Assembly (NCBI RefSeq): GCF_005405925.1 | Contig: NZ_BJHV01000001.1 | Span: 2,480,001-2,544,000, forward strand | From: Streptomyces antimycoticus | Lineage (GTDB): Bacteria > Actinomycetota > Actinomycetes > Streptomycetales > Streptomycetaceae | Direction: 5' to 3' | DNA length: 64,000 nt | The notes under the pieces: model-generated | What the model saw: the letters and a program-made list of their open reading frames with translations, nothing else | Databases searched by the model: none | Told to the model about the DNA's origin: nothing | Made by a program: the position numbers and the translations under genes | In this document: in pieces, positions 41,827-43,795 of the stretch | Layout of the letters: every line of letters starts with the position of its first letter | Position numbering within the stretch: the stretch's first letter is position 1

Positions 41827-43457
41827 CTACGCCGCCTCCCCCAGTCGCTCCCACGGCCAGGCGACCCGGCCACCGCGGTCGCTCTCCGACAGCAGCCCGA
41901 CCATCGTGAACAGCTTGTCGCTGAAACCGCCGATCTCGTAGCGGTTCGGCCGGCCGGTGTCGATGGACGTGGCCGCGTAGCCGGTGGTGTTGACGCCGAA
42001 CACCGGCACCCGCGCCTGAACGGCCTCCGAGACCGGCACGGACCGGCCGCCGCGCGCATCGGCGAACGCCTGCATATCCGAGACGATCACCACCCGGTCG
42101 TGGCCGCGGTAGGCCGCCCGCAGCGCCGCCCCGTCTCCGTGCCATGGCCGACCTCCCCGATCCGCGCGCAGAATCCCTCGATGTCGCGGAGCACCGAGCC
42201 ACCCGGGGTCAGCCGGTGGCCGAAGTGCCCGGAGGCGAAGCCGACCAGGTCCACCTGGCAGCCGCGGTGCGCGAGCGCGACCCCGAAGAGCGCGCCGATG
42301 TCCACATGGCGCACCTGGGAGCGGCCCGAGACCGGCGCCTGCATGGAGCCGGAGGTGTCCACGAGCACGAGGGTGCGGCCCGGCAGCGCCGGGACGGCCG
42401 CCGTTGCCGCGGTCAGCGCCCGGTCCAGGGCGTGGCCCCAGCGCAGCGACGGCGCGGCCCGGTACGCGGACAGGAAGCGGTACGGGAACTGGCGGGAGCG
42501 GGCCACCTCCGCCGGGTCGGCCAGCCGTGCCGCGATCCGCTCGGCGACCGCGTCCGGCAGCCCGGCCTCGTCGAGGTTGCGCAGATTGCGCAGCAGCGCC
42601 ATGTAGCCCATCGAGGGCAGCACGGCCTGCCAGGCCACCGCGTCCATCGGCCCCTGCAGCCAGCCCGCGAGCGCCTCCCAGGTCATCCCGGCGGTGCGGA
42701 GCGCTTCGGCGGCGTCCGGCCGCTCCAGCACGGCGCGCCGCTCCCACTGCGGCAGGGCGGTCAGCCGGGCGCGGGCGCGCAGGGTGCGCAGCGAGACCGG
42801 GGGCGCCGCGTCCCGGTGGTGGCGGCGGTCGATGGCGTGCCGGAACAGCTCGCTCTGCCACGGCTTTTCGGGGTCCGGGGCGGCGTGCACCAGCTCCAGG
42901 ACGTCGGCGAAGCGGAAGCCGTGGCTTTCGGTGTCGTGCTTGAGCAGCGAGCGCTCGGTGTAGAGGCGGCGGGCGGCGTCGGCGAGGCCGCGCTTGACCG
43001 GCTTGGGCAGGGCGCGGCCGTGGTGGGCGGTCCAGTAGGCGAGGAACTCACCGGGCTCGTCGGCGCGCAGACACGCGGCGTCGACGATGCGGCGGTTGCC
43101 GCCGTGCAGCCCGGCCGCGAGACGTGCCGCGACGGCCTCGGCCGCGGCGACCAGCGAGGCGGTGCGCATCTGGGCCTCACCGCGCAGCCAGGTGATGAAG
43201 CGCGCGGTCCAGTCGGCGTCCTCGACGGCGACGGTGCGGACGAGGGTGCGGAAGCGGTCGTCGCGGTCGCCGGAGGACTCGTAGAAGGTCTGCTCGCCGA
43301 CCATGTTCACCACGGCCTGGAGCACCAGTTCGGACCTGCTGTCGCGGGTGACGGCGGCACCGCCCTCATAGGTGGTCGTCGGGGCCGTGGTGGTCGTCGG
43401 GGCCGTGGTGGTCGTCGTGGCCGTGGCGCGCCGGATGGCGCGGTTGAACTTCGTCAT
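41827..43457 (-). pseudogene. rsr: TROVE-domain Ro60-like protein, split by a one-base frameshift
   Basis: A Ro60 (TROVE) protein that binds Y RNAs and misfolded or decaying RNA. It begins MTKFNRAIRRATA, then a Thr-rich repeat, RDSRSELVLQAVVNMVG with ETFYESSGDRDDRF-type family sequence, a long HEAT-like ring, and a C-terminal von Willebrand A domain with the MIDAS motif DTSGSM. The frame of 42087-43457 ends early; restoring one G in the G-run at 42129-42132 rejoins the rest of the vWA domain (RVVIVSDMQAFADARGG, VFGVNTTGYA, stop at 41827). The loss of a single base suggests sequence error. A tRNA-like RNA candidate lies upstream. Confidence 0.8.
43365..43440 (-). repeat. Short tandem repeat encoding a Thr/Ala/Pro linker
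   Basis: Near-identical units of about 24 bases (gtggtcgtcggggccgtg core) encode TTTTAPTTT-like repeats near the N-terminus of the TROVE protein. It is a slippage-prone linker. Confidence 0.6.
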
Positions 43458-43621
43458 GCGGTCATGCCTCTCCCCCGAGTGGGCATAGGAGGGAGGCGGC
43501 GCACCGGTGCGTCGGCAGCGCCTGAGGTCGAAAAGTGGGCGGCGGACTGCTCTGGGAAAGGAAGTAACCGCGGCCCGCGCACCAGGCGCTCCGATGCCGT
43601 GCGCGCGCCTCCCGAGATCAA

Positions 43622-43721
43622 AGTCGACGACGGTACGTTTCCCACCCCGCGCCGGCGGGGTGTTTCAGGAATCGAACCCAAATCGACCGAAGTAACCGTC
43701 GTCTTCGCACCGGGAGGTGCG
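43622..43721 (-). ncRNA. Candidate Y RNA (YrlA-like) upstream of the Ro60 gene
   Basis: On the minus strand, upstream of the TROVE gene, a compact fold is visible. A closing stem GACGACGGTTAC (43692-43703) pairs with GTACCGTCGTC (43626-43636). Inside it are a tRNA-like T-arm TTGGG-TTCGATT-CCTGA (about 43665-43681) and a perfect 8-bp hairpin CACCCCGC-CGGC-GCGGGGTG (43643-43662). A further 6-bp hairpin (43706-43721) lies 5' to it. Bacterial YrlA RNAs carry tRNA-like modules and are usually encoded next to ro60 genes. No conserved coding frame explains this sequence. The structure is seen; the identity is inferred. Exact ends are unknown. Confidence 0.5.
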
Positions 43722-43795
43722 TTCACGGATACGACAGTAGGGGCCGCTTCCTTCGCCGTCATCCGGTTTTCTCCGCCCGGAGGACCGCGGACCAC

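Follow-up and report, generated by a model that had tools for sequence, protein, structure and literature searches.

Y RNAs without a tRNA-like domain are known from vertebrates and from some bacteria, and in Salmonella only one of the two Y RNAs is tRNA-like. Published descriptions of bacterial Y RNAs present them as mimics of tRNA that have D, T and acceptor arms and undergo modification by TruB and DusA (PMC8394870; this and the other PMC articles are cited from excerpts). In YrlA, Rsr is bound by the basal stem and PNPase (RYPER) by the tRNA-like domain, which is also what TruB and DusA modify (PMC8394870; PMC4726728). The excerpted accounts further describe a Salmonella RNA repair operon, rsr-yrlBA-rtcBA, with a ro gene and two Y RNAs (PMC7790460), and name yrlA in mycobacteria (PMC9569102). 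Our literature search returned no paper on Streptomyces Ro60 with a Y RNA, for which Chen 2014, Sim and Wolin 2018 and Wang 2018 may hold examples, and none joining permuted tRNA and Y RNA. For Streptomyces with YrlA it gave four papers, PMC9569102 among them. Here we analyse a 64,000-nt stretch of Streptomyces antimycoticus DNA (contig NZ_BJHV01000001.1, positions 2,480,001 to 2,544,000; hereafter the window), in which two related structured elements on the minus strand, RNA1 and RNA2, are flanked by an ABC transporter gene (Pfam domains OpuAC and BPD_transp_1) and a TROVE-domain gene, ro, which starts at 43457.

We consider it highly probable that this interval holds two tandem bacterial Y RNAs in the ro leader, presumably excised, whose ends would serve as a landing site for Ro60/Rsr, with RNA1 acting as a tether and RNA2 as a gate. 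The features on which this reading is built are the following.

43608..43725, minus strand: putative Y RNA 1 (RNA1), a reduced YrlA with lower stem, GGTGCGAAG...GGTTACTTC / GACTTTGATCTC, upper stem, T arm and closed acceptor stem, without D arm (R1 and R2 models, fold z)
43608..43717, minus strand: lower (Ro-type) stem of RNA1, 7 bp, CCTCCCG (43717-43711) with CGGGAGG (43614-43608) (sequence; the homologous stem covaries)
43626..43703, minus strand: upper (closing) stem of RNA1, 9 bp, GACGACGGT (43703-43695) with ACCGTCGTC (43634-43626) (sequence; the homologous stem covaries)
43665..43681, minus strand: T-arm-like element, stem 43681-43677 with 43669-43665, loop TTCGATT 43676-43670 (100% of cells paired, 10 sequences)
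43643..43662, minus strand: acceptor-stem-like hairpin, CACCCCGC/GCGGGGTG, 43662-43655 with 43650-43643, perfect 8 bp, loop CGGC (98.8% of cells paired, 10 sequences)
43510..43597, minus strand: putative Y RNA 2 (RNA2), Ro-type ends as in RNA1, without tRNA-like domain (R1 and R2 models, fold z)
41827..43457, minus strand: ro gene, TROVE domain (Pfam E 5.1e-14) and VWA domain with DTSGSM

Structure, conservation and ro linkage of the two RNAs

Both RNAs have the long stem expected of a Y RNA, formed by pairing of the 5' end with the 3' end and bearing conserved Ro-type nucleotides, and RNA2 lies 52 bases from the TROVE start codon. In RNA1, GGTGCGAAG follows the lower stem, ahead of the 9-bp upper stem. 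RNA2 forms its own lower stem (GCGCCTG 43589-43583 with CAGGCGC 43524-43518) and shares the ends of RNA1 (GGTGCG...CGGTTACTTC and CGACCTC) around a short middle. The 9-mer GGTTACTTC stands at 43697-43689 and again, exactly 128 bases on, at 43569-43561 inside RNA2. RNA1 folds with a z score of -3.23 (1 of 200 shuffles equally good), RNA2 (43510-43595) with one of -2.49 (4 of 200).

A sequence-only reading of this DNA had placed a YrlA-like Y RNA beside the TROVE/Ro60 gene. The closing stem that it drew at 43692-43703 with 43626-43636 exists as the nine pairs listed above, as do the T-arm-like loop TTCGATT and the perfect 8-bp hairpin, and its outer hairpin turns out to be the conserved lower stem. 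Its guess that the recurring 9-mer marked a second, tandem RNA is borne out by RNA2. The Y RNA reading itself is supported by linkage to ro, by covariation and by models built from the Ro loci of other species.

To build these models, 71 TROVE loci were collected by searching named genomes with the TROVE protein (loci and genomes are given below by our handles, L and G). R1 (alignment A1) was trained on 26 of 28 short candidate RNAs and R2 (A2) on 41 of 49 complete ones of fitting length; the window and its nine closest relatives by TROVE (L002-L010) were kept out of both training sets. Each model finds both RNAs in the window: the R1 scores are 65.9 bits (E 5.1e-13) for RNA1 and 52.4 bits (E 6.3e-10) for RNA2, with the next match at E 0.41, and the R2 scores are 69.1 bits (E 2.3e-15) and 49.1 bits (E 1.8e-10), with the next match at 0.061. 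The matched lengths are about 118-126 nt for RNA1 and 88 nt for RNA2. Searched over the window's own genome, R1 returns RNA1 and RNA2 only, up to E 1.

The alignments also contain compensatory stem changes across Ro loci, whose absence the sequence-only reading had listed as counting against it. In A1, 93.8% of cells are paired and two-sided changes occur at 11 of 16 pairs; such changes number 60 cells, where shuffles give 15.0. In A2 the corresponding figures are 94.9%, 23 of 31 pairs, and 233 against 69.4. None of 500 shuffles reached the observed count in either alignment, and shifting the partner by 1-3 columns lowers pairing to 35.6-51.0% (A1) and 38.2-50.6% (A2).

Linkage to ro is widespread. 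A motif scan (GGTGCG...GGNTACTTC...GANCTC) found the RNA upstream of TROVE in the window and in 57 of the 71 loci, and the covariance models recovered it in 11 of the 14 named loci that the scan had missed, so that an RNA lies upstream at 68 of 71. Two RNAs are present at 36 of 72 loci (motif scan, window included), and the common layout is one short RNA plus one that carries a complete circularly permuted tRNA, with T arm, loop-closed acceptor stem and D arm, which is the YrlA plan. Among 109 RNAs, classified by regular expression with L056 and L059 (-165) reassigned by eye as D-arm carriers, 50 have the full tRNA-like domain, 19 have a T arm but lack the D arm, and 40 have no tRNA-like part. 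Of 246 genomes from the genus, 113 contain both the RNA and TROVE, 119 contain neither, and 14 are discordant. Separately, at five loci (L135-L139; genomes G066, G125, G170, G172 and G186) a Y RNA stands ahead of truncated ro pieces, as in decaying ro loci.

On the protein side, a predicted model of the L002 orthologue of the window protein matches Ro60/Rsr structures, and by that model the orthologue has the Ro fold, a HEAT-like ring with a VWA domain.

How does the locus compare with the systems already described? With YrlA (RF02553) it shares the Ro-type stem, the permuted order of T arm before closed acceptor stem, and the position beside a ro/rsr gene; the arm order in the RF02553 alignment is that of our related loci. 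RF02553 matches five of six related loci tried (E 2.8e-9 to 0.0024, all under the gathering score; none in L022). The label "YrlA-like" of the sequence-only reading fits the T arm and acceptor stem of RNA1 and otherwise has to be narrowed: RNA1 lacks a D arm, RNA2 lacks the tRNA-like domain, and RF02553 has no match in the window up to E 10. RNA2, a two-stem hairpin with conserved Ro-type ends, resembles the Y RNAs without tRNA-like domain, and its ends look similar to the vertebrate motif GGUCCGAAGGUAGUGAGUUAUC...CUUGACUAG; unlike vertebrate-type Y RNAs, the window RNAs stand in tandem ahead of ro and have no Rfam Y_RNA match. The Salmonella operon likewise has a ro gene and two Y RNAs, whereas in the window both RNAs precede ro, and neither rtcA nor rtcB is among the four neighbouring ORFs scanned with Pfam.

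The reduced tRNA-like domain of RNA1

Only RNA1 has part of the YrlA plan, namely the T arm and the closed acceptor stem. A D arm is absent from it, since the 8 nt (GGAAACGT) between acceptor stem and upper stem are too few, and the R2 match skips that part. Pairing of T arm plus acceptor stem reaches 99.2% of cells in ten sequences from the clade, the acceptor stem shows two-sided changes at two pairs (five cells), and the T-loop core GGTTCRA is retained in all ten. In a nine-sequence set, with L010 added and L075 and L076 omitted, 94.0% of cells are paired; L010 keeps the T arm, and its acceptor stem is gone.

One alternative is that the T arm and acceptor hairpin of RNA1 are decaying remnants, in a clade where only the Ro-type ends still matter and mimicry is being lost. 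Neither the window nor the eight relatives that keep RNA1 have a D arm any longer, the whole of RNA1 is missing in L004, the acceptor stem is lost in L010, and four Ro-positive genomes (G246, G248, G249 and G250) yield no full tRNA-like R2 match, all of which would fit such decay. We nevertheless regard it as unlikely, given the pairing of T arm and acceptor stem, the two-sided acceptor changes, the T-loop core kept in ten of ten sequences and the T arm kept even by L010.

The last of the points in favour of decay comes from an R2 search of ten named genomes, nine without a full-length YrlA at the ro locus plus that of L002, a sister of the window. S. lavendulae (G246), G248, G249 and G250 (the genome of L004) gave no full tRNA-like match, only partial matches of the tandem-tRNA type, plus a short RNA in G249 and G250. 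The genome of L002 behaved like that of the window, and the other five have a strong full-length R2 match somewhere, in places beside ro. Each species reportedly has at least one tRNA-like Y RNA, a rule ascribed to Chen 2014; within model sensitivity, these four genomes run against it. L004 (2800-2950), which retains RNA2 and an open ro, amounts to a natural RNA1 deletion.

In the window's own genome no complete YrlA was found elsewhere at the sensitivity of R1 and R2. Over that genome, R2 adds a partial match at a tandem tRNA-Asn pair (G000:C1:3566506-3566590, L155) and weaker matches, the next two of which also lie at adjacent tRNA genes. Most genomes give 37-119 R2 matches, which we rejected as extra tRNA-like RNAs; in the own genome, the sole one inspected, they are tandem tRNA genes. 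The part of R2 matched by the tandem tRNA-Asn genes is its permuted tRNA-like domain, and such tandem genes may have been a source of the YrlA domain.

Leader position, proposed roles and Y RNAs away from ro

Upstream of RNA1 lies one further conserved feature.

43734..43762, minus strand: promoter-like element, ATGACG (43762-43757), 17-nt spacer, TACTGT (43739-43734) (conservation)

The promoter consensus is TTGAC / TANNNT, and the TGACG together with the T, A and T of TANNNT is invariant in the window and eight relatives; the predicted transcript start falls near 43727. A simple sigma-70 promoter scan found nothing here, so the assignment draws on this conservation and that consensus. A simple terminator scan found no terminator-like site through to ro. 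With a single promoter-like element before RNA1 and no terminator-like site before ro, we infer that both RNAs would be transcribed as part of the leader of the ro transcript and presumably excised from it.

Each RNA would then close on itself by its conserved ends, forming the lower stem and setting GGUGCG.AG....GGUUACUUC against GACUUUGAUCUC as the Ro60/Rsr landing site, and the Ro ring most likely binds both. The outer end of RNA1 would be a stripped-down tRNA mimic, a T arm beside a closed acceptor stem without D arm, and by analogy with RYPER this minihelix could tether Ro to an effector such as PNPase, which is encoded in the window genome. RNA1 may also be a substrate of TruB, though not of Dus. 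RNA2, having no mimic, would be a plain gate on Ro.

A second alternative is that the structures act only in cis, as elements of the ro mRNA leader which control ro through Ro binding or through their own folding, with no free Y RNA. Both do follow the conserved promoter-like element and precede the ro start, and no terminator-like site was detected in that interval; in other genomes, too, an ORF (priA) comes directly after a tandem pair of the same class. Established bacterial Y RNAs are, however, small RNAs of 90-150 nt (PMC8394870, excerpt), and members of this class occur far from ro. Among 150 R1 matches listed, 124 lie within 5 kb of TROVE, 20 elsewhere in TROVE-positive genomes (some on another contig) and 6 in genomes without a TROVE match; among 150 R2 matches listed, 128 are near TROVE and 22 far.

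Two kinds are conspicuous among the distant matches. A tandem Y RNA pair occupies the metK-priA spacer of several Ro-carrying Streptomyces (L141-L153 and L175), separated from ro by hundreds of kb or placed on a different contig. NCBIfam confirmed the genes at L175 (primosomal protein N', 1155.7 bits; metK, 558.4 bits), a similar priA start follows the RNA pair in the remaining loci by eye, and the Rfam Streptomyces-metK RNA lies upstream in all four metK-priA loci scanned. A literature search on metK, priA and small RNA gave, by title, nothing on Y RNAs. Solitary complete YrlA genes (L161-L174) are mostly followed by a GC-rich, terminator-like inverted repeat and have varying neighbours; their D arms belong to different tRNA types, many of them, as we take it, tRNA-Glu-like. 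The window's own genome was found to have neither the metK-priA pair nor a solitary YrlA. The Y RNAs away from ro suggest a role in trans, and a purely cis-acting leader is for that reason ranked as improbable.

The idea that the locus is a tRNA pseudogene or a piece of a tRNA gene, or that GC-rich DNA folds like tRNA here by chance, can be dismissed as extremely improbable: TTCGATT does look like a T loop and tandem tRNA genes do match part of R2, but ARAGORN predicts no tRNA at this place, RNA2 is devoid of any tRNA part, R1 finds both RNAs without containing one, and the conservation and covariance-model results already speak against it.

Returning to excised Y RNAs, we tentatively extend this reading, at somewhat less than even confidence, to a multi-locus family in Ro-carrying Streptomyces, comprising the ro tandems, the metK-priA pair and the solitary YrlA genes, which may act in trans with Ro and mimic different parts or kinds of tRNA; the mimic would have shrunk to a T-arm/acceptor minihelix in the clade of the window and vanished in some lineages. 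If so, Y RNAs could function without the D arm and the tRNA elbow. Taken together, a clade in which the sole mimic is without its D arm and lineages with no detected mimic would form a natural series of deletions in which the purpose of the mimicry can be tested, and the presence of Y RNAs next to priA, far from ro, would broaden the presumed scope of Ro RNPs.

Points against the Y RNA assignment and minor observations

Several results weigh against the reading of RNA1 and RNA2 as Y RNAs serving Ro. The window ro gene is itself frameshifted in the assembly: its frame breaks near 42130 (42120-42140, minus strand) by a one-base deletion inside the VWA domain relative to three relatives, so that ORF 42087-43457 ends prematurely and the remainder is readable in the frame of ORF 41827-42861. 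The gene is open over 470-640 aa in 66 of 68 named loci examined, and the frameshift may be a sequencing error or a recent loss; barring the former, Ro is possibly missing in this strain. No RNA was found by motif or model at three of the 71 loci (L051; L070, a partial TROVE match; L072, a very weak one), TROVE occurs without an R1 match in 8 of the 246 genomes, and among the matches listed 10 of 133 TROVE places have no RNA within 5 kb. Conversely, G160 (C9:303383-303533) and G196 (L140) have a YrlA-type RNA and no TROVE match, and tblastn found no ro piece around the G196 RNA.

On the RNA side, the RNAs omitted from A1 (2 of 28) and A2 (8 of 49) were picked by eye, and neither Rfam YrlA (RF02553) nor Y_RNA matches the window up to E 10. 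The covariance-model search envisaged by the sequence-only reading thus succeeded with R1 and R2, which detect RNAs missed by the Rfam YrlA model, and failed with Rfam, whose scans of the window gave only a tRNA-Pro above threshold and otherwise sub-threshold, unrelated families. The reduced type is sampled by ten closely related sequences in which the T-stem changes are one-sided, at two pairs (G-U to A-U and U-G to C-G). Finally, the minimum-energy fold of the whole of RNA1 favours a UCGA/UCGA hairpin over the T arm; segment 43681-43643 folded alone gives the T arm and acceptor hairpin. The UCGA/UCGA hairpin is paired in 90% of cells and loses pairs in two of the ten sequences (one in L008, three of four in L076), against 99.2% for T arm and acceptor stem, which makes the T arm the better-supported reading.

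Two smaller features may be recorded. Near the N-terminus of Ro, an in-frame short repeat of TTTTAP units (43370-43425, minus strand) is absent from the seven relatives compared. The other overlaps the lower stem and Ro-type site of RNA1.

43706..43721, minus strand: palindrome CGCACC-TCCC-GGTGCG (sequence)

Its CACCTCCC arm, which presumably resembles the 16S anti-Shine-Dalgarno sequence, can pair with GGTGCG as a hairpin competing with the lower stem. Of 107 RNAs, 37 carry it, a single RNA at each of 37 loci (the window and 36 others), and in 28 of the 37 it reads CGCACCTCCC.
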